Shown here: piece after piece, positions 10,742 to 60,426 of the stretch | Layout of the letters: the number at the start of each line of letters is the position of its first letter | How positions within the stretch are numbered: position 1 is the first letter of the stretch | Assembly (NCBI GenBank): GCA_025558095.1 | Contig: JAIVFI010000043.1 | Span: 62,001-126,000, forward strand | DNA from: Hyaloraphidium curvatum | Lineage: Eukaryota > Monoblepharomycota > Hyaloraphidiomycetes > Hyaloraphidiales > Hyaloraphidiaceae | Reading direction: 5' to 3' | DNA length: 64,000 nt | Translations under genes and position numbers: made by a program | Notes under the pieces: generated by a model | What the model was told of the DNA's origin: nothing | The model's input: the letters and a program-made list of their open reading frames with translations, nothing else | Databases searched by the model: none

Positions 10742-13700
10742 ATGGGCCCCGTGGCAGCGCGAGCCGGCGCGGCGCTGTCATGGGTCGGTTTCGCTGACCC
10801 CGGGCTCCACTCGAGGGCGACGAAACTCAAGCCGGACTCTGGAGGTGCTTTGGACACCGCCAGCGTGCCAGACTCCGCAGGCGACGGCCCAGATCTTATG
10901 GCGAGCGCCCCTGGAGTCACCGATTTTGAGTCACCCGAACTCTCTCGCCTGACATTCGGCCCGGGCGTCGGTATCTGGACTGGCATGCTCTCTAGCTTGG
11001 AGCTCCCCGCTCCTCTTGAACGCTGCGTTCCGTGGGGCGCCGCGCTGCTCTCATCCCTCGTCCTGGCCCTCGTCTACGGTGCCCTCTGGGTCATCTGCTC
11101 CGGGTTCCGCACGTTTCAAAACACGTACACGGCGTTTTGGCCACCCACGGGCTTCGCAGGTTCGTTTCTTGAGTGCCCCTTCATCGTGTGGGATGATGTG
11201 GGACTGGAAGCTGACGTGCTTGTCTAGTTGGAGTCACGATCGCGATGGACTTCCGCATTCGTTGGGTTTTCCCTATCCTTGTCTTTGCCGTTGCTTTGCT
11301 CATGGTAAGCTCTGCAACACGGTCTGCGAGGTATGGCAATGGGAGCTGATCCGCCTGTGCTTCGGACTCAGAGGGTGTTCTACCTCGGCCGCCCGTCTGG
11401 TCCGTCGGCGGCATTCGCGGCCGACGTGGCGCTCGAAGTCTTCGGCATCAGCTTGACCACCATCGGCTTCGCTTCGCTGATTGCCAGGAGGCCAGGCGTG
11501 CGGATCGACCTCTCCAACGGCTGGCACGTGCTTTCCTTCGCTCTCGGGATGTCTTGGGCATGTGTCGCTGCGGCGATAAGGGTGACGATCATCACCGCCT
11601 ACACCTCTTGGCAATGGCCCGCGACCTGGGGAGATTCGTACCTGAACGTGCTCGACATTGCGACAGTCTGGTAGGCAAAGACGCTGCCGACTTGATGCAA
11701 TCAAGTGATTCTCCTGCAGCCTCGTCGCGCCCTTCGTCATCTCCGTGGTCAATCAGCGACCGACCTTCCGCGATATTGTCCGCCATCCGGTGGTCACGCT
11801 CGCCTATTTGGTCGACCTGGCTCTCATCGTCACGATCCCGCTAATCGCATACGCCATTCTCACGGGATACTCACTGTTTCCTTTCATGACGGGCCTCTAC
11901 GTCAGCTTTCCCTTGATCAGCGTCATGGCTCCCTTCGTCGGGGTGACTGGCGTCTCGTTCGGATGCCTTTTAAGCGGGTTGAGCGCGGGTGCGACCGCCG
12001 TCGGCCGCTGGAATGCCCTGCCCGAAGATCAGCGTCTGGCTGCGCAGTTCAACATCCGGGATCAAATGCTCTGGATCCAGCTGGTGAGGAAACCGCGCAA
12101 TGCGACAGACTCCGCGCGCGGTAACATTTCCGTCCAGTTCTGCACGATCCTTGTCTTCGCGTCCCTCTCCTTCGTCTCGGTGATCAAAGATCGTGACAGA
12201 GCACGGGAGCATGTCGAGCTTCAAGTGGAACAGAGGACCGAGGAACTTCGGCAGGCTCTCGCTCTCGTGGAGAAGGAACGGGCTCTCGCCCAGGTGGCCG
12301 CGAAGGATAAGGGAGACTTCCTCGACTTCCTGGCCCACGAACTTCGGGTAAGGATCTTTCGCTTCCATCTTTCGGCTCTCCTGAACGCGGCGCCTTGCAG
12401 AACCCCCTCCACGCGGTCGCCAACTTGTCTGAGACGTTGGTGGAGCATTCGGGTCTCTCGCCCGTCCTCTCGCCGTCGCTTCCTCCGCAATCTTTGCTTC
12501 CGCGATCCGAATTCAAGTTCATCGATGGCGGCCCGTTTCCGCGGCGGGCGGCACTCGGTTCCGACGCGTCTCCTTCCGCTTCCGACCAAGGTGCCGACAT
12601 TTCCTCGACGGCACGGGGAATCCAGCTCTGCACTTCCTACATGCTTTCCCTCGTGGAAGAGGTGATGGCCATGAGCAGTTTGGAGAATGGCTCCGAGCGC
12701 GTCCAGATGGCGCCGACGGATCTTCGCGAACTGTTCGGCAAGCTTTTGGCAGCGGTCTCGGCATCGGCCACGGGTTGCACGGGGTCGAGTTCCTTGGCAA
12801 TGTTGGCGACAGAGTTCCGGCTATAGCGGAAACGGATCTCGGCAAGATGCTTCGCGTTGTCAATGCTCTTGCCAACTGCTGGTGGGTTGCGGCGGCGGCT
12901 GGAATGATTCGAAAGCCGCTGACGTCTTCGAAGCCTGAGCAGGACCGTTCAAGGGGACAAGGTCGCACTCGAGATTGATTTTGAACCGTCCAGCAACGTG
13001 TCGAGGGCTTCGAATACTTCGCAGGAGGGCGCTGTTCTAGTGCAGCTCGGCGAACCTGATCTCGCGCGCGCCGCGAACGGCTTCCTTGTCGTCTCCTGCT
13101 CCAGTTCAAGGCTGCCCTCGGACATGAAAACCCTGGAGAACTTGTTCCATCCGTACTCGATCACAGCCGCCGTGGGCGCGTCGGAGTACTCTGGCTCCGG
13201 GCTCGGTGGGATTGCTTTCGTGGGCCGGTTTGTGACTAGCTAACCCTTGTACCTTCCAGGCCTCGCCATTGCGGATAGAATTTCTCGCCTCATGGGTGGC
13301 CAGGTCGCCGTCGAGCGCGTCGGGAGCCAAGCCGGACCCGAGGCGCAGGCGCCGGTGAAGCTCGTCTTTCGGCTCCCGATCAAGGTCGTAGAGGCCCGGC
13401 CTCCTGAGTCTGCGGCTGCGGCGACAACAATAACCGCTTTACCGTCGCCCATCGTGCTGAACGACGTTGGATCGAGTCTGGATTCTTTGCCCACGGGAAC
13501 CACGCCGTGGCCTCGCACTTCCTCCAACGTCAGCGGCGCATCTATTTCGACGTTGCCATCTGCCTCCGCATCCGTTCAGCCGGCGACTCGATCGCGTCGC
13601 AGGATGCTAGTGACGGACGACTCGCAGATGAACCGCAACATTCTGGTGCGCATCCTCAACAAGATCATTTCCGACTGGCGGCCTGAGCCTGGAGTGGAGT

Positions 13701-45030: not shown

Positions 45031-47602
45031 TCAGGCAGCCTGCGATCCGCCCTGCACGACCTGCTTGACCTGGCCGACGACCTCGCGGGTGTCCTGCCTC
45101 CCCTTGTCGAACTCGCTTTTGGCCTCCTGCGTCGAGAGCCCGGTGGTGCCCTGGCCAGCCGCGCCCGCTCCGATCTGGCCCTCAGCGCGAACCCCGGCAG
45201 ATCCTCCCGTGCCCCCGATCTGGCCTCCAGCTCCGATCTGGCCCCCGGCTCCGATCTGGCCCTGGCCCCCGGCGCGAACCCCGGCAGATCCTCCGACTTC
45301 GACGCCGACCTGGCCGCCGACCTGGCCTCCGACCTGAGCAGAGCGGTTGCCCGGCGCCGACGTCGTTCCCTGCTGGTAGCCCTGCTCGGCGGTGCCCCTG
45401 CCCTGCTCGTAGGCCTGCGACGCCGTCTCCTGGGCGCGTCCGGCAGCCTGGCGACCCTGCTCGACGCCCCGCTCGGCGGTGCTCCTGGCGGACTCGTAGG
45501 CCTGCGAGGCGGTCTCCTGCGCGCGGCCCGCAGCCTCGCGACCGGTCTCGATCCCGCGCTCGGCGGTGCTCCTCGCGGTGTCGTACGCCTGCTGCGCCGT
45601 CTCGCGTCCCGTCTCGATCGCACCCGTCACGGTCTCCTTGGAGGTCTCGTACGCCTGCAACGCGGTCTCCCGGGCACGGGCCGCGGCTTCCGAGGTGGCC
45701 TGCACGGCGGGCTGCACCAGGTTCTCGTTCAGCGCGGTGCCGATCTGCTGCGCGCGCTCGGTGGTGCTCTCCACGGCGGCTTCGACGGTCCCGACGGCGC
45801 GGCTGCCGAGCTCCTGGGCCGAGCGGGCGGCCTGCTCGGCGGTCTGGACGGCGGCCGAGGGCAGGTTCTGGATGGTCTCGGAGACGGCGGAGACGCCGCG
45901 CTGCGTGGTCTCGGCGATCCCGGAGGCGAGTTCCGAAGCGGATTCTCCGATCGCTGCGGGGTGCATAAAGTTAGCTGATGCGTCATCGAGAGTGCATCGC
46001 AAACACCAACAGCGTTCGGCGAGCCGGTCCTCGGGGACGGCGGGCTTGCCGGTGGCCAGCTCCTTGACGACCTCGACGCCGGCGACGGCGACCTGCCGGG
46101 CGTCTTCGCCGACCTTGCTCACGACCTGGGCGGCCTTGGAGAGGGCTTCCTGTCCGACCTGGCGGGCCTGGCCGACGACGCTCGAGACGGTCGACGCGGC
46201 GGAGGAGAGAACGGAGCCGGCGGTGCTGGCGGCGCTCTCGGCGGTCTCGTAGGTGGCGCGGGCGGCCTGCTGAGCCCCCTGGGCGGCGGTGCTGGCGGCC
46301 TGCTGACCGATCTCGACAGCGGTGCCCGCGGCCTGCTGTCCGAGCTCGACGGCACCCGACGCGACGCGCTGGGCACCCTGGGCGGCCTGGCTCCCGAGCT
46401 CGACGGCGGTGCTTGCGGCCTGCTGGGCGCCCTGGGCGACGGTGCTCGCGGCCTGGCTGCCGTTCTCGAGGGCTCTGGATCCGGCCTGTTGCACGCCGCT
46501 CGCGGCCATCTGCGCGCCCGTGGCGGCTGTCTCGAGGCCGACCTCGCCTGCTTCGTAGACGCGGCCGGCATTGCGGGCGGCGGTGTCCATGGCGGCTTGC
46601 GTGACGTTGGTCGCGGTGGCGGCGGCAGTGCCGGCGGCGCGTGCTCCGGTCTCGAGGGCCTGCGAAGCGATCGATCCCGTGGCCTGGAAAAGCGAAAGGC
46701 GTCAGATGATGCGAAGGCGTGATCGTGACGAGCGAATCACCTGGGCGGCACGGCTCCCGACCTCGGCGGCGGTCCCGGCGGCGCGACCGGCAACGTCAGC
46801 GGCGGCCTGCATGCCCTGCTGCCCCATCTCGGCCCCGCGCTCCATGGCCTGCTGGCCGGTCTGCACGGCGGAGCTGGCGGCCTCCCTGCCGGCCTGCATG
46901 GCCGAGCTTGCGGCCTGGCTGCCGGTCTGCATGGCGGAACCGATGGCTTCCCTCCTGGTCTGCAAGAAAAGCCTGATCAGATCATCGTTCAGAAGGCCCA
47001 ACGAAGATCACGCACCTCGGCCGCACGTCCAGCAGTCTGCTCCGCTTGGCCCATCATTCCTTGGCCGACCTCCTGACCGCGCTGATGACATGCGAAACCA
47101 TCAGTGATCTGGCACGACTCGGAACCCATTGCCCCGGAAATCACCTGCGCGACGTTGCTGGCCGACTCGCTGATCTGGCTGCCCATTCCCTGCCCAGGCT
47201 GACGAGAGATCTGGCCTCCCTGTCCGCCCCCGAGGGAGCCGGACGCCTGCGCGAGGGCGGAAACAACAAAGTCAGCGAAAGCTCGGCTCGGGCCCCGCAG
47301 CGCCGAAGGCGCACCTGCATGCTTCCGCCGACCGCGACGTCGCCCGAGAATCCTGTCGAGGTGCCGCTCCCGCCCACCGAAGCGCTTCCCGAGAGCCCGC
47401 CGGCGGCCCCGGTTCCGCCTGCCGCGCCCTGGCCCCGCGTGCCCGCCGAGCGCTCCATCGCGTCGATGCCGGGCGAGTCGGTGCCGCGCGGCACGGGGAT
47501 GCCGGGGACGGGCGGCTGCGCGAGGCCCTTGTCGAGCGTCGAGTACTCGACCCGGATGACCTCCTCGGGCTGCGGCGTGGGGATGTGCCTGCTGTCGGAC
47601 AT
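45031..47602 (-). CDS. Large Ala/Gln-rich LEA-like repeat protein
   Basis: Six exons on the minus strand: 47602-47315, 47246-47145, 47081-47016, 46959-46741, 46683-46011, 45953-45031; 756 aa. After a Gly/Ser-rich N terminus, about 500 residues consist of degenerate 11-residue units such as QAASTAVELGSQ and SAERGIETGREAAGRAQETA, with Ala and charged residues placed to form long amphipathic helices, as in group 3 LEA (LEA_4) proteins and perilipin/apolipoprotein-like repeats. The C-terminal about 120 residues are Gly/Gln rich (VGGQVGGQVGVEVGG type). No signal peptide or membrane span. Likely a desiccation- or stress-protective, intrinsically disordered protein or lipid-surface coat. An in-frame readthrough of intron 5 is possible (57 bp). 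Confidence 0.7.
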
Positions 47603-49760: not shown

Positions 49761-50236
49761 TGCGACGGTCCGGGTCGGAACCGGGCCTGAAGCTCTAACC
49801 CGGCGCGCGAATCCCGCTCGGCTCTTCGGGTCGGATAGGCCCTGAATATGAATAAGCGAACAGCGCTGAAGATACTTGACTGTAGCCGGGGGAAAGAGGT
49901 TACGGGATGTCTCCCGGGGTGCGTCCCAAGGGCTCTCAGAACGAGGATCCGGCCGGGCGGGGTTCCGCACGGTGGTCGAACGACACGGAGAGCACGTAGA
50001 GTCAACTGGCGATCAAGATTGTACTGTTACATGTCCCGCTCTTTATATATCCCAGGAGGGTGGCTGTGCCGAGTCACTTGCGAGTCGCTCGCGAGTCGCT
50101 CGCGAGTGACTCGCGAGTCACTCGCGAGTCGATCGCGAGTCGATCACGAGTCGATCGCGAGGACCGACGCCTCCACGCCTCCGAACCGAAAATGAAAATA
50201 CCCTTGTCCGAATGTCAGACGTCCTGTACCTTCGCA
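49761..50236 (-). repeat. 3' LTR of the chromovirus (minus-strand sense)
   Basis: 476 bp, TG...CA ends. Carries in the sense direction an array of GCGAGT/ACTCGC palindromes (50071-50161) followed by TATATAAAG (plus positions 50041-50049) and the presumed R-U5. I found no difference from 59951-60426 when compared line by line. Confidence 0.95.
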
Positions 50237-50378
50237 CGCCCCCACCCAAAAGAAGGCGCCGCCCTCGGCGCCACGAAATCGAAGATCCTCCGCGGAGTGA
50301 CGTCATGCTTGCAGTAGAAGATGTTGAAGGCCGAGGTGGAGACAACAGATGTTGGAGAGTGTAGGGCCGAAGGGTGGC

Positions 50379-51644
50379 TTAGGCGTCCTCAAAGTCGACG
50401 TCGGCGTCCGCCTCGTCGTCGCTCGGCGGCGGGGCGCGGAGCCGGCGGGTAAAGCCGAGAGCGAAGGCGGCATGCACGGCTGAGCCGTCCGCGGCCGAGG
50501 GGGTGTAGACCGGGGGCATGGTCGACTTGTAGGGAGCGGCCGGGATGTCGTCGTACAGGGCGGCCAAGAGGCCGTCGTCCTGCGAGACGATGGAGGAGGC
50601 GTCGCTGCTGGACACGCTCTCGGGGCGAGGAGCTGGAGGTTGCATATCCCCAGCCTCATCGTCGGAGGTGACGAGGTCCTCGTCCTTGACGCGGCCGACC
50701 GGCGTGGAGGTGACCACGGCGGGCGTCGTTTGCCCCGCCAGGGGAGCCACTTGATTGCCGAGGAAGCGACGCAGGAGGGCCCGTTGCTCGTCGGCGGTCT
50801 TGGTGAAGTGCTCGCGCTGCGCGTTCAGGCCGGCCGTGAGGAGCGTGGTGTGGTCTTGAGCTGAAAGCATGAGCTGCTTGTGCTGCTCCGACCCAAATCG
50901 CTGCAGATGGGCCGCCAGGACGCTCTTGAGGTCGGCCGCAAACTCCGCCATGGGGCCATTGTTGTGACGGGCGAGATTGGTCTCGACGACGGTCTCGATG
51001 GTGGTTTCGAGGTTGGTCCCGGTCTGAGCAACCAGCCCGGCGAGGGAAGAGCCGAACTCCCTCAACTCCTCGATGGTAGCTTCGTCCACCAGGAGAATGC
51101 CGTTGAAGTTCTGACGTTGAGCCTCGAGCACCAACGCAAGCCGGTCGAGCTGCGTCTCGATGGCACCGAGACGAGCGTCGTCGGTCCGGCGCAAGGCGGT
51201 GACGGCGAACTCAAGTTCGCGGTGGCGGCCACTGAGGACCACCTGGAGCTCGTCACGCTGCTGGCGGATCTGGGCGTCCAGGCGGGCCTCTTGCTGCTCG
51301 AGCGTCGCCGTTACGCGGTCAAGAGCGTGCTGCTCCAGGTTGCCGACATTGACGAGGGTGTTGAGCACCGGGTGGAGTGCGTCGAGGGCTGCGCGGATGG
51401 GCATGACCGCGGAGAAGGCGGCCTGCTCGACCTTGTGCAAGTGGGCCGTCGTCTGGGAGTGTCTGACGTCGAGGTCGGCCCGGAGGTCGTCCAGCCGGGT
51501 CGAGAGGGAGGCAAGCGCCGACCGATAGTCCGGGGGTACGACGCCAGGCAACGCAGCGACGGGCGCAGTCGCCGGCGGCGGCGCCGTGGCCACATGCGGC
51601 CGGCGGGGCCGCAGGTTGTGGCCGGCAGTCGTGGGGGTCGCCAT
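50379..51644 (-). CDS. Accessory sense ORF of the chromovirus: coiled-coil protein of unknown function
   Basis: 421 aa, intronless. N-terminal Pro/Ala/Arg-rich segment (about 50 residues), then about 240 residues of mostly helical, heptad-like sequence (STRLDDLRADLDVRHSQTTA, ATLEQQEARLDAQIRQQRD and similar), predicting a long coiled coil, then a disordered Ser/Pro/acidic tail ending DEADADVDFEDA. No enzymatic motif, signal peptide or membrane span, so it is not an obvious envelope protein. It lies after pol in sense orientation, and its ATG is 69 bp downstream of its own TATA-like box (CCATATAAG, 51713-51721) and near a palindrome array (51735-51885), suggesting separate transcription. No homologue recognised. 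Confidence 0.7.
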   Translation of the reverse strand: MATPTTAGHNLRPRRPHVATAPPPATAPVAALPGVVPPDYRSALASLSTRLDDLRADLDVRHSQTTAHLHKVEQAAFSAVMPIRAALDALHPVLNTLVNVGNLEQHALDRVTATLEQQEARLDAQIRQQRDELQVVLSGRHRELEFAVTALRRTDDARLGAIETQLDRLALVLEAQRQNFNGILLVDEATIEELREFGSSLAGLVAQTGTNLETTIETVVETNLARHNNGPMAEFAADLKSVLAAHLQRFGSEQHKQLMLSAQDHTTLLTAGLNAQREHFTKTADEQRALLRRFLGNQVAPLAGQTTPAVVTSTPVGRVKDEDLVTSDDEAGDMQPPAPRPESVSSSDASSIVSQDDGLLAALYDDIPAAPYKSTMPPVYTPSAADGSAVHAAFALGFTRRLRAPPPSDDEADADVDFEDA

Positions 51645-51712
51645 GGGAGACGGTAGCGGCGAGGTCGACGTTGGGTGCGTAGTCCGCGGCCGCGGCCTCC
51701 TGTGGTCCGCCG

Positions 51713-51721
51713 CTTATATGG
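51713..51721 (-). promoter_or_regulatory. Internal TATA-like box of the accessory coiled-coil ORF
   Basis: Minus-strand CCATATAAG, between the palindrome array and the ATG at 51644. The order array-TATA-ATG copies the order seen in the LTR (array, TATATAAAG, transcript). Confidence 0.55.
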
Positions 51722-51734
51722 TGCGAAGCGCAGG

Positions 51735-51885
51735 CAACTCGCGAGTGCATCGCAAGTCGCTCGCGAGTGACTTGCGAGCGACTCGCGAGTGACTCGCGAG
51801 TGACTCGCGAGTCACTTGCGAGTCAACCGCGAGCCAACCGCGAGTCAACCGCGAGTCAACTGCGAGTCGAGTCGACCGCGAGTTC
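51735..51885. repeat. Internal array of GCGAGT/ACTCGC palindromes between two divergent ORFs
   Basis: About a dozen copies of GCGAGT or its reverse complement, many joined into palindromes such as ACTCGCGAGT and GCGAGTGACTCGC, with later units spaced as CAACCGCGAGT. Spacing is irregular, about 8-12 bp. The same units fill 50071-50161 and 60261-60351 in the LTRs. It lies 91 bp upstream of the coiled-coil ORF (minus) and 139 bp upstream of the spliced antisense ORF (plus), so it looks like a bidirectional upstream activating or operator array. Confidence 0.75.
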
Positions 51886-52023
51886 GCCCGCACACCGGGT
51901 CACCAGTCCCCGCCACGGGGGACGGGGCGCGAGCGAGGGCCGTACGCCATTGCGTCGACGAAAGCGCTCGCGGGGGATCGCGACGTAGGGTCCAGAAGAG
52001 CTGGGGGGATCTCCGCGCCTGTC

Positions 52024-53009
52024 ATGAGTGCGGAGCTGCCGAACGTCGTCCCGCCGAGTTCGTGGTTCGAGGTTCGGTTGCCGACCTTCGACGTCCTGCT
52101 GTGCACCAAGGTAAGAGCGTAGCGGCGTGGTCCTCGAACGGGAGCTCAGCGCCGCGCCAGGAGGACGACGTGGTCGACTGCTTCCTGCAACTGGTGCGTC
52201 TGGCCGCCATGCGCGGGATGTTGCCGCTGGCCGAAGAGGCTGGGAACGTCGTTGTCGAGGTCCGAGTGCTCCGTCGGCTCGTCGCCGAGCTGCGCGAGGC
52301 CGGCGGGACCGCCAAGCTGCGCGAGGCTGGCGGGGCCAGAGGCAACGACCCGATCGCGGCCGCGGCCGCAACCCGGACCTCCGGCGTCTTCCTGCCGGCG
52401 ATGTCGTCGAAGGGTGCGCCTTCCGTCGGCGAGGGCGAGTCGGCGGCGGACTCGAGGGAGGAGCTCGAGGCGGCCGACGAAGTCCCCGTGCTGTCAGTCA
52501 CGCTTCATGCGCCCTCTTGGGAGCTGGACCACTTAGGCGACTTCGAGGCCGCCACTGAACAAGGGAGCGCCTTCCAGACGGCCCAAACGGCAACTTCAGG
52601 TAAAGACGAGGGGCATGTGGTGCAGCGCGGGGAGGCCCGGGAGCAGATTGCGCAGGTGAACGGCTCGACGGGAGTACGCCCCACAAGCGCTGATCGTCAC
52701 TGAATGTGCCAGATGAAGAAGTCGTCGCCGGTCTGGGGCTTGAAGGCGGAACGGGTGACGAAGAAGGTCCCTGATGCCGTGCCGGCAGGCTCCTTCCTCC
52801 GATGGAAGATTGCCGGAACGTACGCCGGCGAACTGTACCGGAGCCCCACCAAGGGCGAAGTGGCGGTATGCTCGTTCCCGTGGTGCCATCTGGTAAAGCA
52901 CAAGGCTAAGGGCCTCCTGGGCAATCTGAACACGCATTTTCAGTCCGGGTATCACAAGTTGGCGTTCGAGGGGGTCGAGGATAGGCTCGAGGTAGTACGT
53001 CGGGTTTGA
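52024..53009 (+). CDS. Antisense, spliced accessory ORF of the chromovirus with zinc-finger-like motif
   Basis: Three exons: 52024-52110, 52161-52655, 52713-53009; 292 aa. Intron 1 is GTAAGA...CCAG (50 bp), intron 2 GTGAAC...CCAG (57 bp) and both preserve frame. Exon 2 encodes helical, charged sequence (VVDCFLQLVRLAAMRGMLPL, VLRRLVAELREAGGTAKL). Exon 3 has C-x4-C-x16-H-x5-H (CSFPWC at 247-252, then LNTHFQSGYHK), like a BED or C2H2 finger. The gene runs opposite to gag-pol, and its start region faces the coiled-coil ORF across the palindrome array. A DNA-binding regulator of the array is a reasonable guess. Splice signals rather than a single frame support it; a further 3' intron near 52995 cannot be excluded. 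Confidence 0.6.
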
Positions 53010-53079
53010 GTCAGTGAAAAGCCGGGGATCGGAGCACAGAGATGGTAGTGCTGTGACCGGATAGACGTCGTTGGTGTTA

Positions 53080-56000
53080 CTAGCGACGCCGAGTCCGCAT
53101 GCGCCTGGGGAGACCCGTCGGGAGCTGGAGACCAACGCGATCGGCATAGGCGCGGACGATCCCTATGGCGCCGTGCAACATGTCCAGAGGGAGCTTGGTC
53201 GTGCGAGCGAAGCCCCGCCACTTGACCTCGAACTTGAGTCCGTGACCCTGGCCCTCGTGGCCGACGATGTCCTCGACGGTGTACTCCTGCTCGTTCCCAA
53301 GCGCGTTCTCGACCTCGATTTCCTCTTCGAACTCGTTCACCGGTTCCGAGAGATCGAGCTCTTCACCGGCGGCGAGCTCCGGGGCGCGTGCGTTCCACGA
53401 GCGCGCGTTGAAGGTGGCCGACTCCCAAGGCTTGTAGCGCGCCAGCCGGTCCACATGCACAGTGGTGACGTGGTCGGTCTCGTAGACGTGTCTACACTTC
53501 CAGGTGAGCTCGGTGTGGCCTGACTCCTCGATGCGGTAGGGCCCAAGATAACGAGAGACGAACTTGCCCGGCTCGCCCTTGCGCGGTCGTTCTGGTCCCC
53601 AGATGAGCACGAGGTCGCCGGGGCGGAAGGTAATCGGAAGCCGGGTAGCGTTGGCCTTGGCGTTCCGAGTCTCCGCCGCTGCGGCCATCTTCTCGGCCAC
53701 CAGGTCGTAGGCCGCACGAAGCTGCGCCACGAGCTCCACGACGTAGGTCCGCCGGCGCTCATCCTCTGTCTTCTTGTCCTCCTCGTCGCTGGCCCGCAGG
53801 TGCACTGGCTCGCGAATCTCGGTCTCGTCGTAAAGTAGGTCGAGCGGAATACGAGCATCCCGACCATGCATCAGAAAGAACGGAGTTTCGCCGGTCGTCG
53901 CGTGGATGGAGGTCCGGAAGGCAAAGATGACCCCCACGATGTCCTCGTCCCATGTCTGGTAGTTCTTGGAGACCGCTGCGCTCAGGGCGTCGATGATCCA
54001 CCGGTTCGGGCGCTCCGCGAGGGAAGCCCTGGGATGCCCAACCGTGACCAGGCCCCGGTTGATGCCGAGTAGCTTGAGCAGGTACTCCATGTAATGGTTG
54101 TCCAGGTTCGAGGCGTTGTCGTGGTGAATCCGCTTCGGAAGACCGTGCTCGAGAATCCATCGCGTATAGAGCAGCTTCGCCGTCGTCGGCCCAGAGAGGT
54201 CCGGAGTCGGATACGCCGCGACCCATTTAGTGAACGGATCGTAGACGACGAGAAGGTACTTGTTGCCGCGGGGCGTGGCCGGATTGATCTCGCCGATGTA
54301 GTCGATGTAGATGTCCTCGTTGGGACCTGTGAGAGGAACCGATTTCAGTAAGCCCTGGTTCGATACCGAAGGCATCTTCCGGGTCATGCATGTAAGGCAG
54401 GCTCGCGTCCAGCGGCGAACGTCGTGCGCCATGCCGACCCAATATACGCGGCGCCGCAGATTGCTGTACGCCCGGTGTCGCCCGACGTGCCCGCTCAGGG
54501 GATCGTCGTGCGCACGTTGCAGGTAGGCCTCCCTCAGCTCGTGCGGTATCACGAGCTGGGTGACCGGGATACGACGGGTACCAGTCGCGAGTACATCGCG
54601 CCGGCAGAGCACGCCGTCCGTAGCGAGGAAGTACTGCTCGCCGTACTTCTTGCAGAATTTGGCCAGATTCACGTTGGGAGGGAGCTCCCCGTCTCGCACG
54701 AAGCGGATCAGCGCGCTGGTCTCGACGTCGGCTTCTTGCACTTTGCGCAGGGCATCCCGGGATCTGACGTCGGCAAGGTCAATAGCACTGATGCCCCCGA
54801 CATCGGGTAGCACCTCAAGCAGTGCCGGATGAAGGAACGCCAGGTCTCGCTCAGGCACGTCTGCCGGGTCGACCTGTGCGTTCGTCGTTGGGATCGGCAG
54901 GAGGATCTGCGTCTCCGGTGCCGCAGCCTCGGGCAGGGTCCCCGGATCGCTCCACAGGGTTCCCTCCACTGCGGCAACCGTGGCCGGGAACTCCGTGCCA
55001 GACAGCACTCGCTCCATTGATTCACAATTGACTGAGGAACCCGCAGTAGCTCGTCCCGAGTCTGACTCGGTGACTGGGGTTGACGAAGAACGGGAAGTCT
55101 GACCGAGATCACTCCCGGAGAGGAATCCGGGCGCCCGTCCCCCCCCAGAAAAAGAAGAAAAAGGCAAGGGGTCGGGAGGGTTTGGGGGCCAAAAGGCAGG
55201 GATGTCCAAGATTTCCTCGGGGTCGCCCATAGGCACGTCCTCGTCGGGCGACGGCGCCACGAGCTGACGAGACAGGAAGTCGGCGTTGGAGTTCGCTTTG
55301 CCCGAGCGATGGATGATCTGGAACCTGAAGTCCGAGAGCCGGAGGATCCAGCGCTGTAGGCGGCCCGGCTTGGAGGTCTCCAAGAGCCATTTGAGGGCGC
55401 TATGGTCGGTGACCACCTCAAACTCGTCCCCGATCAAATACGCCCAGAAATGCTCGCATGCCCAAACAACGGCCAGGGCTTCGCGCTCCCGAGTGTCCCA
55501 CTTGCGCTCGTTCGGCTGCAGAGCGCGGCTGGCGTAGGCGATGACGTACTCCTTGCCATCGGAGTCCCGCTGGCTGAGCACCGCGCCGAGGCCGATATCG
55601 CTGGCATCCGTGAACAAGACGAAGCGCTTGGAAAAGTCGGGGCGACGGAGCACGGGCGCCGACGTAAGCCGTTCCTTTAGCATACGGAAGGCGGCCTCGC
55701 ATGCGTCGTCCCAGGCCCGAGAGACCGAGACGCCGTCCTGCGTCAGGCGGGTGAGCGGGCTGGCAATGTTGGCGTAGCCGGCAATGAAGGGGCGATAGTA
55801 GTTGGAGAGGCCGAGAAACGATTGGAGCTCCTTCTTGGTCGTTGGGCGGGGGAACTGGTCCACCGCGCGGGTCTTCTCGGGGTCGACCTTGAGGCCGTCG
55901 GCGGTGACGTAATGCCCGAGGTATTTGACCTCGCGGCGGAAGAACTTGCATTTGGCCAGCTTCAGAGTCATCCCGGCCTCGCGCAGTCGGTCAAAGAGGA

Positions 56001-58215
56001 GCTCCAGGTGCACGAGGTGCTCGTCGACCGTCTGCGAGAAGATAATGATGTCGTCGATGAAGACCACCAAGCAGTACCACTGGAGGCCGGCGAGGAGCTC
56101 GTCCATGATCCGAGCAAAGGTTGCAGGAGCGTTGGTAAAGCCCATGGCCATCCGCTCCCACTGGTAGAGACCGCGGTGCGTCGTGAAGGCCGTCTTTTCC
56201 TTGTCCTCGTCGGCCACCTCCACGTGCCAAAAGCCGGAGCGGATGTCGCAAACGCTCCACACCTTGGCCGCGCTGAGGAGAGCGAGAGTGTCGCTTGGGT
56301 TCTTCATCGGGTAGACGTCGCGCTTGGTGGCGGCGTTGAGCTTCCGGTAATCGATCACCAGGCGCCATTCGCCCGAGCCGTGCCCTTTTGGCACCATGAT
56401 GCAGGGCGTGGCCCAGGGGCTTCGCGAGGGGACGACTACGCCCTGCACGAGCAGGTCGTCGATGATCTTGTCCATTTCCCCGCGAAGCCGGAACGGGGTC
56501 CGGTACGGCATCTGGTGGATCGGCTTGAGGTCGCCCGTGTCGATCCGGAAGCGATGGTTGCGCAGCTTGCCGATCCAAGGACCAAACACGTCCCGGTAGC
56601 GGTCGCAGAGCTTATGGAAACGAGGTTTGTCCCCCTCGCTCAGGATCGTTTGGTCCATCTTGAGCTCGATAGCCTCGACCGGAGGAGGCTCCACGCCGGG
56701 AGGCTGAGGTGGTCCAATCGATCCCGGCGAGGGCACCGCGAACAGATCGATGGTCTCCTCGACCGTGAGCGTGGATTCGGCCGGTTCGGTGTGGGGCAGC
56801 TCGGGCTCCAGCATCGAGATCTGCGCGGGAGCCAGATACGTGGGCGGTTCCGGAGCGAGAAATCCAGGAATCCGCACGCGGAAGCGGCCGAGGTGGGTGC
56901 CCGGGCCGATCGTGACCGGTGTCGTCCCGTAGTTGCGGATGAGAATCGGCAGCCGACCGTCTCTGTCGGGCGTCGCCGACGGGATGATGAAGAGGCGATC
57001 GAACGGCGAAGTGTTCGGCGTCTCGATGACCCCTGTCAAGTCCATCTCCACGACGGTCGCCAAGGGAGTCGTCGGGGCCAGCTCAGCGGTGATCGAGACG
57101 TCCTCGTTGGGGTAGACCGTGATGGAGGTGGTTGAATGGAGCGGGGCGACCAGGTGTGATCCGAAGAGCGGTCGCGCAACAATGTGCATTGGCACGACGA
57201 CCCCCTCCGGATCGTCCTTGAAATAGAGGACCGGCGTCTCCCAGTCCATCTGAACGCGTAGGGCGGAGAGCCAAGGGGTGCCGAGGATCACGTCGTCCAT
57301 GAGACCGTCCATGATGGCGACGTCCATGACGCAGTGTTGATTCCCGACCAGGATGTCCATCTTAGCAACTCCGCGGACCCACATGGTTCCGCCGGCCGCG
57401 GCCGTGCTGAGGGTGCCGAGTGTCCATGGTTTGATCGGTGGCGACGGGTGGATCCGGCAGAAGAAGGACGACCGAACCGCCACCACTGAGGCACCGGAGT
57501 CGACGAGGGCCGCGGGGGTATTCACGCCGTTGACCCATGCCGAAACGCGTGCCGCCTGATAGTGGAACTGCACTTGCGAAGTCCACGTCCAGCGATCCGG
57601 CGGAGGGGCGACCGGAGCAGGTGGCCGCGGGCGAGGCCGAGGGCCAGGCAGCGGTGGTCGTGCGTAGGCGGAAGGAGGAGGGGGCCTTTCGAAAGGTCCG
57701 GGAACGGCGCGGACGGTCGGGCCCTCGTGCATAGGTGCATCCGCTGATCCCGCGTCCGCATCCTGTGCCGCCGGTTCACCGTTTCCCACGACCTCGACCG
57801 AGCCGGGCGACGCCGAATCCGCTGCCGGCGGCGGGGCCAGGGTCTCGTCGATCGGCATGAGCGCCTCCCGCTGCTGACGAACGGCGGCCTGTCGAGCTGC
57901 CTCCGCCTCGAGGAAGAGGATGTACTCCGTGCCCCCGAAGGGCCAATGATGAACGTGGTCCTCCGCCGTCGGTTCATCGGTCGCGGAATCCGACAACTCC
58001 GGCGATCCGCCAGGAGATGAAGGGTCCGTGCCGTCCGGCAGCGGGGAAGTTCCAGGAAGAGGTTCCACATGTGGTTCAAGAGCTTGGATCTCTGCCCCCC
58101 TATGGCCGTGCGGCACTGAGGGCAAAGCTAGTTTTTTGGCATCGAAGGGGTGTTGCCGAGGCGAGACTTCCAGTTGAGTGGGCGGCGGTTGGCATTCTTC
58201 TCCAACTCCCAGCAC
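53080..58215 (-). CDS. pol: pol polyprotein of the chromovirus (protease, RT, RNase H, integrase, chromodomain)
   Basis: Open frame of 1711 codons; productive translation should enter at 58131 by -1 frameshift from gag, so the first about 28 codons are probably not used. Domains in order (frame numbering): aspartic protease ALVDSGASVVAV (about 236-247); reverse transcriptase with WSVCDIRSGFWHVEVAD and VVFIDDIIIFSQ (about 715); RNase H FVLFTDASDIGLGAVLSQ (about 863); integrase HHCC zinc site (about 1234-1275) and DDE core with IYIDYIGEI (about 1300); C-terminal chromodomain YTVEDIVGHEGQGHGLKFEV and KWRG (about 1642-1667), presumably directing insertion to marked chromatin. The frame is intact from end to end. 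Confidence 0.95.
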   Translation of the reverse strand: MLGVGEECQPPPTQLEVSPRQHPFDAKKLALPSVPHGHRGAEIQALEPHVEPLPGTSPLPDGTDPSSPGGSPELSDSATDEPTAEDHVHHWPFGGTEYILFLEAEAARQAAVRQQREALMPIDETLAPPPAADSASPGSVEVVGNGEPAAQDADAGSADAPMHEGPTVRAVPGPFERPPPPSAYARPPLPGPRPRPRPPAPVAPPPDRWTWTSQVQFHYQAARVSAWVNGVNTPAALVDSGASVVAVRSSFFCRIHPSPPIKPWTLGTLSTAAAGGTMWVRGVAKMDILVGNQHCVMDVAIMDGLMDDVILGTPWLSALRVQMDWETPVLYFKDDPEGVVVPMHIVARPLFGSHLVAPLHSTTSITVYPNEDVSITAELAPTTPLATVVEMDLTGVIETPNTSPFDRLFIIPSATPDRDGRLPILIRNYGTTPVTIGPGTHLGRFRVRIPGFLAPEPPTYLAPAQISMLEPELPHTEPAESTLTVEETIDLFAVPSPGSIGPPQPPGVEPPPVEAIELKMDQTILSEGDKPRFHKLCDRYRDVFGPWIGKLRNHRFRIDTGDLKPIHQMPYRTPFRLRGEMDKIIDDLLVQGVVVPSRSPWATPCIMVPKGHGSGEWRLVIDYRKLNAATKRDVYPMKNPSDTLALLSAAKVWSVCDIRSGFWHVEVADEDKEKTAFTTHRGLYQWERMAMGFTNAPATFARIMDELLAGLQWYCLVVFIDDIIIFSQTVDEHLVHLELLFDRLREAGMTLKLAKCKFFRREVKYLGHYVTADGLKVDPEKTRAVDQFPRPTTKKELQSFLGLSNYYRPFIAGYANIASPLTRLTQDGVSVSRAWDDACEAAFRMLKERLTSAPVLRRPDFSKRFVLFTDASDIGLGAVLSQRDSDGKEYVIAYASRALQPNERKWDTREREALAVVWACEHFWAYLIGDEFEVVTDHSALKWLLETSKPGRLQRWILRLSDFRFQIIHRSGKANSNADFLSRQLVAPSPDEDVPMGDPEEILDIPAFWPPNPPDPLPFSSFSGGGRAPGFLSGSDLGQTSRSSSTPVTESDSGRATAGSSVNCESMERVLSGTEFPATVAAVEGTLWSDPGTLPEAAAPETQILLPIPTTNAQVDPADVPERDLAFLHPALLEVLPDVGGISAIDLADVRSRDALRKVQEADVETSALIRFVRDGELPPNVNLAKFCKKYGEQYFLATDGVLCRRDVLATGTRRIPVTQLVIPHELREAYLQRAHDDPLSGHVGRHRAYSNLRRRVYWVGMAHDVRRWTRACLTCMTRKMPSVSNQGLLKSVPLTGPNEDIYIDYIGEINPATPRGNKYLLVVYDPFTKWVAAYPTPDLSGPTTAKLLYTRWILEHGLPKRIHHDNASNLDNHYMEYLLKLLGINRGLVTVGHPRASLAERPNRWIIDALSAAVSKNYQTWDEDIVGVIFAFRTSIHATTGETPFFLMHGRDARIPLDLLYDETEIREPVHLRASDEEDKKTEDERRRTYVVELVAQLRAAYDLVAEKMAAAAETRNAKANATRLPITFRPGDLVLIWGPERPRKGEPGKFVSRYLGPYRIEESGHTELTWKCRHVYETDHVTTVHVDRLARYKPWESATFNARSWNARAPELAAGEELDLSEPVNEFEEEIEVENALGNEQEYTVEDIVGHEGQGHGLKFEVKWRGFARTTKLPLDMLHGAIGIVRAYADRVGLQLPTGLPRRMRTRRR

Positions 58216-59783
58216 TCGTCCTGAGCATGCCCATCCATGCCACAGAGATGGCAGTGGCGAGGCTGGAAGCGCTTCTGGTCGCGGTACTCCGAGGTGAAGG
58301 GCCGGCGATCCTGGCGCTCCTGCTGCTGGCGGGGCCGATCGATCGGAGGAGGCCTCGCGGGGGGGTTCGACCTGGTCTCCGCGGCCTGAACCTGATGGCG
58401 AGGCGACGGCAGCAGCTTGGTGATGAGCTCCTTGATCTCGACGAGGTCGCTGTTCGGCCCCGAAGGCGGCAACGGCTGGCTCCGACGAGACTGGAAGGGG
58501 ACGAAACGGCGCGGAGGCCGGAACGCAGACTCCCCCGGCGGTCCACCGGTGGGCCTGCGCTCTCCCTTAGGCTCCAGCAGCTTTGTGAGAGCCTGCGTAT
58601 GAGCCAGCAGCACTTCCGTCGTCGCCTTGTCGGTCGCCTTGGAGGAGCCCGAAGACGAGTGCTGGCCGACCAGAGCCGGAATCTCCGAAATCGAGTTCTG
58701 GCCCAGGAAACGGATGTCGCGCGGCTGCGCAGGGCCCGATGCTTGCATGACGGTGCGCATCTTCTCGATGACCTTGGTGACGGAAGTGCGGTTGATGAGG
58801 TGATCCCCGAGGAGCTCCAGCGCCTTCCCGCGTAGCTCCGGGCGCAGTCCGTAGAGCAGGTTCTGGCCGTACACGCTGTCTTGCACTTCCCTGGTAGGAA
58901 GCTGATCGCCGCAGTGCGAGAGGAAACGCGTCTCGGCCAGGGATACGCGGGCAACGAAGGCGTCGAGGGTCTCATCGTTGGTCATCTGAATCGTGTTGTA
59001 GTGCCGGCGATAATGCATCGATGCGTCGCGGGGCTCGAAGTGGTAGCGTAGCCAGGCAAGCACATCGTTCTGGGTCACCGGAGGATAGGTGGCCGTCGCG
59101 GGATAGTCCGGAGGGCGGTTCTGCGGCGTGATGTTGTGCCACATTGCGCGCGGCAGAGGCCCAAGGAAGACCGGGAAGACCTTGACGAGGTTGTTGATGG
59201 AGCCGAACGCCGTGAGAACCGTAGTGAGGTCGCGGAAGAAGTCTTCCGGGTCCTGCGTAGCGGGATCGAAGGGCTGAACAGAAGCAGGCAGCAGCTGAGC
59301 CGGGAGCTTGGCGGCTCCGCCCTGGCGATCCGCCTGGGGGAGGCCGGTGCTTCCATCGTTCGGCGGCTGAGCGCCAACGATGGCCCGTACGGCGTCGACG
59401 AACTGCTGCGGCTGGAGACCAGCGGCGGCAGCGTTGACAGCCGGGGCTTGCTCGCTCCGCTGACCCTGCTGCTGTGCGGCGAGCTGCTGGAGCTGCTGCG
59501 CTGCAAGCTGCTCGGCGGCGGCTTGCTGTTGAACTTGGGCAGCTGGCAACTGCTGAGCGGTCTGTTGCGCCACGAGCTGAGCGGCAAGCTGATCGGCGAC
59601 GGCTTGCTGGGCGGCTTGCTGGGCGGCGAGTTGGGCGACGTCGTTGGCGGCGGCGCCGACTTGCTGGATCGCGGCCTGCGCAGCTTGGATAATCGCCTGG
59701 GCCTGCGGGTTGTTCTGCAAATCGTTAGCTTCCTGAGGCTGCTGAACCTCCTGCTGAGGGGCGGCTTCTTGAACGGGGTCCAT
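58128..59783 (-). CDS. gag: gag of the chromovirus
   Basis: 551 aa from the ATG at 59783 (MDPVQEAAPQQ); the frame is open to 59849 (573 aa). The N-terminal third is Gln/Ala rich and likely helical or disordered. The middle shows a retrotransposon gag capsid pattern (FFRDLTTVLTAFGS, WLRYHFEPRD, ETLDAFVARVSLAETRFL). The C terminus has one CCHC knuckle, CHLCGMDGHAQDEC, then ends PSMPKN-stop at 58128, directly after a slippery heptamer that leads to pol. Confidence 0.9.
   Translation of the reverse strand: MDPVQEAAPQQEVQQPQEANDLQNNPQAQAIIQAAQAAIQQVGAAANDVAQLAAQQAAQQAVADQLAAQLVAQQTAQQLPAAQVQQQAAAEQLAAQQLQQLAAQQQGQRSEQAPAVNAAAAGLQPQQFVDAVRAIVGAQPPNDGSTGLPQADRQGGAAKLPAQLLPASVQPFDPATQDPEDFFRDLTTVLTAFGSINNLVKVFPVFLGPLPRAMWHNITPQNRPPDYPATATYPPVTQNDVLAWLRYHFEPRDASMHYRRHYNTIQMTNDETLDAFVARVSLAETRFLSHCGDQLPTREVQDSVYGQNLLYGLRPELRGKALELLGDHLINRTSVTKVIEKMRTVMQASGPAQPRDIRFLGQNSISEIPALVGQHSSSGSSKATDKATTEVLLAHTQALTKLLEPKGERRPTGGPPGESAFRPPRRFVPFQSRRSQPLPPSGPNSDLVEIKELITKLLPSPRHQVQAAETRSNPPARPPPIDRPRQQQERQDRRPFTSEYRDQKRFQPRHCHLCGMDGHAQDECWELEKNANRRPLNWKSRLGNTPSMPKN
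58131..58137 (-). promoter_or_regulatory. -1 ribosomal frameshift site between gag and pol
   Basis: In the gag frame the last codons are CCA AAA AAC TAG: the heptamer A AAA AAC (X XXY YYZ) immediately precedes the gag stop. pol is in the -1 frame and is open across this point. A AAA AAC is one of the canonical -1 slippery sequences. Sequence beyond it is GC rich and could fold, but I have not modelled a pseudoknot. Confidence 0.8.
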
Positions 59784-59931
59784 GTTTGGCGAAGGGGAAT
59801 GAACTTGGTTGACGGAATACGGTTGACAGAAAAGAGTGGCAGTCGACAAGCGCCGGTGCCAGGCGAAGTTGTTTTTGGATTATCGAAGTCGAAACTGAAG
59901 TCGAACGAGGTGTCGAAGACCCGAGAGCAGG

Positions 59932-59949
59932 ATCACGGAGGTCGGACCA
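59932..59949 (-). other. Primer binding site candidate
   Basis: One base after the 5' LTR end (sense direction) the minus strand reads TGGTCCGACCTCCGTGAT, beginning TGG as expected for pairing with the CCA end of a tRNA. The donor tRNA was not identified. Confidence 0.5.
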
Positions 59950-59950
59950 G

Positions 59951-60426
59951 TGCGACGGTCCGGGTCGGAACCGGGCCTGAAGCTCTAACCCGGCGCGCGA
60001 ATCCCGCTCGGCTCTTCGGGTCGGATAGGCCCTGAATATGAATAAGCGAACAGCGCTGAAGATACTTGACTGTAGCCGGGGGAAAGAGGTTACGGGATGT
60101 CTCCCGGGGTGCGTCCCAAGGGCTCTCAGAACGAGGATCCGGCCGGGCGGGGTTCCGCACGGTGGTCGAACGACACGGAGAGCACGTAGAGTCAACTGGC
60201 GATCAAGATTGTACTGTTACATGTCCCGCTCTTTATATATCCCAGGAGGGTGGCTGTGCCGAGTCACTTGCGAGTCGCTCGCGAGTCGCTCGCGAGTGAC
60301 TCGCGAGTCACTCGCGAGTCGATCGCGAGTCGATCACGAGTCGATCGCGAGGACCGACGCCTCCACGCCTCCGAACCGAAAATGAAAATACCCTTGTCCG
60401 AATGTCAGACGTCCTGTACCTTCGCA
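59951..60426 (-). repeat. 5' LTR of the chromovirus (minus-strand sense)
   Basis: 476 bp, no difference found from the other LTR. Palindrome array at 60261-60351 and, downstream of it in sense direction, TATATAAAG at plus positions 60231-60239, forming the likely promoter of gag-pol transcription. Confidence 0.95.

Follow-up and report, generated by a model that had tools for sequence, protein, structure and literature searches.

A divergent gene pair around a family-specific repeat array between pol and the 3' long terminal repeat of Ty3/gypsy elements in Hyaloraphidium curvatum: a candidate self-regulation cassette

Organization of the element and its accessory module

The 64,000-nucleotide stretch of Hyaloraphidium curvatum DNA analyzed here (the window; contig JAIVFI010000043.1, positions 62,001 to 126,000, assembly GCA_025558095.1) carries a Ty3/gypsy retrotransposon on its minus strand at 49761-60426, with the target site GGTC duplicated at both ends. 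Long terminal repeats (LTRs), target-site duplication, gag, and a pol in the order protease, reverse transcriptase (RT), RNase H and integrase are all present, and the gag and pol frames are both open (Table 1). Since the two 476-bp LTRs are identical and flanked by GGTC, the insertion is recent. The 2843 bp between pol and the 3' LTR hold a sense open reading frame (ORF), a spliced antisense gene and, between them, a tandem array that recurs in the unique 3' (U3) region of the LTRs; in this and two related families, the internal and U3 arrays match by family and not across families. An initial annotation of the interval, made from its sequence alone, had described two accessory ORFs pointing apart, a CCHH motif in the antisense one and dense palindromes between the genes. 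The ORF list and the splice model bear out this layout, and the motif and the palindromes were also found. The presence of the array in both LTRs, which lie outside the interval covered by that annotation, had been missed.

The antisense gene is predicted from sequence to comprise 292 codons in frame, interrupted by two introns (50 and 57 nt) with GT...AG borders. It is arranged tail to tail with pol, 70 nt separating its end from the pol stop. Its C-x4-C ... H-x5-H motif lies in exon 3 and corresponds to no Pfam zinc-finger family; a profile search against PDB gave a single match at an expectation value (E) of 0.96, which we took as chance. The sense protein is probably a coiled coil, as suggested by a mostly helical structure model of low confidence (mean predicted local distance difference test, pLDDT, 53), and its last 110 residues carry a net charge of -15. 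For the tails of the families described below, the net charge is -13 in a piece from the third and -3 in the second, whose sequence is cut by N. Baculo_PEP_C and DUF2218 were considered as families for the sense ORF and rejected, their scores being under the Pfam cut-offs. Neither accessory protein belongs to a Pfam family above cut-off, and scans of viral contigs with both proteins revealed no relative.

Five CTCGCGAG palindromes fall within the 132-nt internal array, as compared with a background of palindromic 8-mers averaging 0.68, with a maximum of 4, over 4443 tiles. Each array lies close to a TATA box on the strand of gag-pol. The DNA is GC-rich (65% over the first 49 kb of the window), and TATAA is scarce in it, occurring at 0.05 per kb and strand over the same 49 kb. 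On the antisense side, the interval from array to ATG contains neither TATA nor TAAA. When the whole genome was searched with a 19-bp array pattern, allowing up to one mismatch, 146 forward matches and no match to a reversed control were obtained; the 50 forward matches listed, out of 146, all lay by eye inside LTR or internal arrays of the window family (F1). Perfect 11-bp odd palindromes were also tried as the array unit and proved weak, with 2 or 3 in each of the F1 and F2 stretches and none in F3, against a background of 1.7 per kb; hence no dimer sites are claimed for F2 or F3.

Table 1. Coordinates of the element's features in the window, with LINE-LTR junction loci elsewhere in the genome.
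Feature	Position	Strand	Basis or remarks
3' LTR, 476 bp	49761..50236	-	LTR comparison
LTR TATA box TATATAAA	50041..50050	-	20 nt downstream of U3 array
U3 array, 3' LTR	50070..50161		same 11-bp array as internal one
Sense ORF, 421 aa	50379..51644	-	strand of gag-pol; helical middle, acidic tail
Sense-ORF TATA box CATATAAG	51713..51720	-	17 nt from internal array, 69 nt from ATG
Internal 11-bp tandem array, 12 copies, period 11	51737..51868		tandem-repeat analysis; between the divergent genes
Antisense gene	52024..53009	+	exons 52024-52110, 52161-52655, 52713-53009; in-frame splice model; CX4C...HX5H in exon 3
pol	53080..58215	-	protease, RT, RNase H, integrase, chromodomain-like tail (Pfam)
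gag ORF, 573 aa	58128..59849	-	ORF list; position and CCHC-like motif by inspection; no Pfam match
5' LTR, 476 bp	59951..60426	-	100% identity to 3' LTR over 476 bp; edges and GGTC flanks
U3 array, 5' LTR	60260..60351		upstream of gag-pol TATA box
LINE-LTR junction loci	L041 (C1:245.7k), L042-L044 (C11), L061 (C1:515k), L063 (C22), L064 (C15:610k)		same LINE-like 3' end, just before GACGC

The element had been called a chromovirus, a label that is weakly supported for F1. A chromodomain at the end of pol is doubtful, since the match covers half of the profile and scores 17.8 bits, below the Pfam cut-off of 25.1, as compared with 51.2 bits for the chromodomain of another gypsy family in this genome. 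Elsewhere in the window, positions 45031-46590 on the minus strand encode a 519-aa ORF rich in short repeats, with a DNA repeat spacing often of 33 or 66 nt and no Pfam match.

Copies, related families and matching of the arrays

The genome searched comprises 31.9 Mb in 55 contigs, and copy counts are lower bounds. At least 10 copies of the accessory stretch are nearly full length, at 99-100% identity, and partial ones were also found; most F1 copies are one 11-bp unit off the window copy (2832 vs 2843 bp). The antisense gene was complete, with all four splice sites and a difference of 0 or 1 nt, at 12 of 16 distinct places checked (the sites covered by loci L001-L032); the accessory stretch was incomplete at the other four, i.e., at C2:164k and in three copies on C11. 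Exon 3 used as a protein query gave 15 matches, 12 of them full length at 100% identity, and the sense protein gave 23, of which 14 were full length and all 14 free of stops. Apart from copies of the element, these protein searches returned element-like pieces on C1 and one non-significant match (E 0.10). The possibility, raised with the initial annotation, of a host gene captured in one copy is thus excluded by the many copies of stretch, sense protein and exon 3, and by the existence of a second family, F2; the companion possibility, that other copies would be degraded, holds for the incomplete modules and fails for the intact majority of both genes. The three C11 copies (G000:C11:508227-532379) are spaced at 11,079 and 11,078 bp with the same truncation and are a tandem array of element copies. 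At seven loci (Table 1), the same 3' end, resembling that of a long interspersed nuclear element (LINE), is joined to gypsy LTRs of different families, and the junction falls at almost the same point of the LTR in each; a LINE may be targeting these LTRs.

F2 was found on C1, where a relative of exon 3 is 45% identical to that of F1 and the RT of the same element is 98% identical. Its layout is that of F1, with pol, antisense gene, array, TATA box CTATAAAG and sense ORF in succession. The F2 antisense gene also has three exons in frame and encodes 286 aa, 36% identical to the F1 protein; intron 1 is followed by corresponding residues (DVVDCFL in F1, DAVDAFL in F2), and the junction and phase of intron 2 are the same in both families (GEA..QIA|M). 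The F1 and F2 sense proteins have N- and C-terminal stretches in common, with an alignment score reached by none of 1000 shuffles, and on this sequence comparison they are homologous. Chance coding in GC-rich DNA is ruled out by the intron positions and by the similarity of the F1 and F2 proteins. The F2 internal array is unlike that of F1 and consists of GACGGCGTCG units. Because of a LINE, the F2 module copy is missing its 5' U3, and the sequence on its 3' side is N; the F2 U3 array was read from the LTRs of L062 and L063, assigned to F2 by identity of their repeat and unique 5' (R/U5) regions (99% and 96%); both carry a GACGGCGTCG array directly upstream of a TATATAAA box.

The strong divergence between F1 and F2 lies in a sharply bounded block. 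DNA identity is 94.6-96.9% in gag and, where pol can be aligned (a piece near its start is absent from F2), 91.5-98.6%; blastn found no match between F1 and F2 in the module. By eye, the two families align as far as the pol stop codon and again from the LTR TATA box onward; they also have the first 17-18 bases of the LTR in common. By a counting method on alignments of diverged proteins, nonsynonymous (dN) and synonymous (dS) divergence were 0.014 and 0.60 in RT, 0.68 and 1.44 in exon 3, 0.73 and 1.09 in exon 2, and 0.80 and 1.24 in the sense ORF. The module is therefore either far faster-evolving than pol or exchanged, and since its edges are abrupt, exchange plus rapid change is favored. In pol itself, dS between the window copy (F1) and L033 (F2) ranges from 0.01 to 0.87 by tract, which suggests that pol is a mosaic; dN is inflated to 0.37 in the first tract, beside the F2 deletion.

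More distant relatives are present in the same genome. The RT of F3 is 86% identical to that of F1. One F3 copy (L071) retains an antisense CX4C...HX4H ORF after pol, has lost most of its sense ORF, and bears a U3 array in which CTGATCCCGAT forms the 11-bp repeat; the CATAAAAGG that follows is non-canonical as a TATA box. A second (L073) has TATAAGAGG in its LTR and a sense frame in pieces behind a TGATCCCG array and a GGTATAAAGG box; at L073:2040-2291, a truncated LTR is fused to the internal array ahead of the sense ORF, a sign that U3 and internal arrays have recombined. In F4 (L072; RT 82% identical, decayed), a C..C..H..H stretch was recognized by eye. Homology of the F3 sense protein was not established by pairwise comparison (F1-F3 score reached by 26 of 1000 shuffles, F2-F3 by 617 of 1000; tails by 340 and 173 of 2000). 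An outgroup gypsy family with a good chromodomain and an RT 38% identical has no module in the one copy inspected by eye, its pol frame running into the LTR start known from L072. Another locus (L070, C36:513.1k) has a short LTR without a long array and one long palindrome, AGTCGCGACG-C-CGTCGCGACT, before the TATA box, possibly another regulatory type.

To compare arrays by family, the 8-mer positions of each internal promoter stretch that are present in each U3 were counted and set against 1000 dinucleotide shuffles, the F3 internal stretch being counted minus its LTR-derived array part. Results showed that 75 positions of the F1 internal stretch occur in the F1 U3, as compared with 5 in that of F2 and 1 in that of F3; the F2 stretch gave 31 in its own U3, 0 in that of F1 and 3 in that of F3, and the F3 stretch 16, 0 (F1) and 0 (F2). 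None of the 1000 shuffles reached the own-family value in any of the three cases, and the between-family counts (0-5) were at chance. In 164 host tiles of 300 nt, the maxima were 7, 11 and 12. Of the three own-family values, that of F3 is the weakest. The longest exact tracts common to U3 and internal stretch measure 26 (F1), 19 (F2) and 11 nt (F3); because they are short and the rest of the U3 and internal stretches looks unrelated, recent block copying is unlikely in F1 and F2.

A self-regulation cassette weighed against other explanations

The explanation we favor, at an even chance, is that the segment separating pol from the 3' LTR is a self-regulation cassette, in which regulators encoded by the element act on operators in both of its promoters. 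Two divergent genes would use the one operator array between them, the same array standing ahead of the LTR TATA box of the gag-pol RNA. Transcription from the TATA promoter on the sense side would yield the coiled-coil protein, and the zinc-finger-like antisense gene would start on the other side. Since arrays and adjacent proteins differ jointly between families and gag-pol hardly does, at least one of the two proteins would recognize the array. The CCHH protein is the better candidate for the binder of the array unit, and the acidic-tailed coiled-coil protein the better candidate for a partner or activator. We infer that the pair would set, by activation rather than repression, the transcription of copies bearing their own array, at the internal promoter first and then at U3. 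The initial annotation had likewise proposed a regulator pair and is partly supported: the conserved two-gene module recurs in related families with an array matching that of the LTR promoter, and the regulatory role of the pair is putative.

Reverse transcription copies U3 to the 5' LTR, and at the 3' end of the RNA cassette and U3 lie side by side. For these two reasons replacement could occur in one step, a single template switch near the end of pol exchanging the proteins and both operators and leaving an old gag-pol backbone with a new specificity. It is conceivable, though less likely than not, that LTR retrotransposons of this host swap regulators and operators as one unbroken block, comprising the two divergent genes, the internal promoter and U3, and that a successful gag-pol backbone could so gain a new private specificity of transcription or anti-silencing through a single template switch.

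Several observations weigh against the cassette. Pfam recognized no zinc-finger or DNA-binding family in the antisense gene, which was searched piecewise and as exon 3, and the structure model of exon 3 was unusable (pLDDT 40). Recombination between U3 and internal stretch, as in L073, could alone keep both arrays alike. In the module, dS is close to saturation. The F2 module is represented by one copy and a 494-nt piece at 98% identity, with its U3 array taken from separate LTRs. The antisense ORFs of the more distant families are not significantly similar to that of F1, the F3 score being reached by 164 and the F4 score by 11 of 1000 shuffles; F3 therefore has the layout and the array logic in common with F1, its protein homology being unproven.

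The main alternative is that the arrays are enhancers for host factors and resemble each other through recombination or copying within the element, the two proteins having an unrelated task, for example in nuclear import, RNA export or particle assembly. The truncated LTR fused to the internal array in L073, the ease with which tandem arrays change copy number, as in the 2832- and 2843-bp versions of F1, and the absence of a Pfam DNA-binding family from either protein are all consistent with this explanation. We nevertheless consider it unlikely, considering that the exact tracts are short, that the flanks of the arrays look unrelated in F1 and F2, and that a host factor would have to recognize different sites in closely related elements of the same genome, exactly where the adjacent proteins change. 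That the module has no function, being captured sequence or a chance open frame carried along as a passenger, might be argued from the frequency of spurious long ORFs at 65% GC and from the absence of any Pfam family above cut-off. This account is highly improbable and is largely refuted by the F1-F2 comparison. F2 has related proteins with conserved intron positions, many copies are intact and protein searches of the genome gave mainly copies of the element.

A different role for the same protein-array pairing would be the removal or blocking of silencing chromatin at arrays of the proteins' own family, as opposed to classical activation. VANC proteins offer a precedent, binding family-specific short motifs in their own, fast-diverging tandem arrays (PMC5735166; PMC10398659), and the arrays described here differ between families of near-identical gag-pol. 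Both in U3 and internally, the spacing between array and TATA box is that of a promoter element, which suggests instead direct action on promoters, and we regard anti-silencing as quite unlikely.

Comparison with known systems

The initial annotation had likened the gene pair to TnpA and TnpD of CACTA elements. CACTA is a cut-and-paste DNA transposon in which one alternatively spliced transcript gives rise to both proteins and an element protein is believed to bind short repeats of the element itself. Beyond this general idea of an element protein recognizing its own repeats, the analogy does not fit, since the element described here is an LTR retrotransposon with RT and integrase, is no CACTA DNA transposon, and has divergent genes.

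In anatomy, antisense ORFs between pol and the 3' LTR are already known. They are described in the plant elements Retand, Grande and RIRE2, with TRP28 in Retand (PMC11963269; PMC7264820). The same sources place Retand in a non-chromovirus plant lineage, report family-specific tandem repeats of unknown function between pol and the 3' LTR in about half of its elements, and mention, for the Grande antisense ORF, an own promoter and a nuclear protein (PMC11963269; PMC7264820). Here too an antisense ORF and tandem repeats lie between pol and the 3' LTR; unlike Retand as so described, the array is flanked by one sense and one antisense gene and is found again in U3, and TRP28 (Pfam PF04195) had no match in the antisense gene pieces or exon 3 of F1 or of the other two families searched. 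Boty-like elements of Botrytis cinerea have an antisense gene, brtn (Zhao et al., 2011, cited in PMC7264820), and by that description alone resemble our element in being gypsy-type with an antisense gene at this position; the available text of PMC7264820 mentions neither a sense partner nor an array matched in U3. A survey of fungal gypsy elements refers, in a figure legend, to an additional ORF of unknown function (PMC2864245). In the open-licence literature, we found no description of paired sense and antisense genes flanking an array that is family-specific and present again in U3. The pair with its U3-matched array is thus a variant on known antisense ORFs.

In logic, two other systems offer parallels. 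For VANC proteins of the Arabidopsis VANDAL elements, binding of tandem-array motifs and demethylation have been demonstrated (PMC5735166; PMC10398659). As there, the tandem motifs of F1, F2 and F3 differ among related families, and here they would be the targets; unlike the Mutator-like VANDAL DNA transposons, the present elements have LTRs and RT, and their anatomy is unrelated. Foamy-virus Tas acts on the LTR and on an internal promoter (PMC4929722; PMC7828637). At the level of sequence, the H. curvatum element likewise has an internal promoter between its last structural gene and the 3' LTR, before a putative regulator, with sites in common with the LTR; unlike foamy virus, it has an antisense partner gene and no env was found in it, and we claim no relation in sequence.

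What antisense ORFs and tandem repeats do at this position is called unknown in plants (PMC11963269; PMC7264820). In the families described here, two proteins are linked to a candidate DNA target, which is legible in the sequence, common to two promoters of the same element and different between close relatives; for these reasons, the question is directly testable by swaps of proteins and arrays. If the cassette is real, an LTR element could take on a new regulatory identity in a single step, and its families would supply natural protein-operator pairs of separate specificities. Foamy-virus Tas and VANC/VANDAL are closer to the cassette in logic than TnpA/TnpD, and the antisense ORFs of Retand/Grande and Boty are closer in anatomy.

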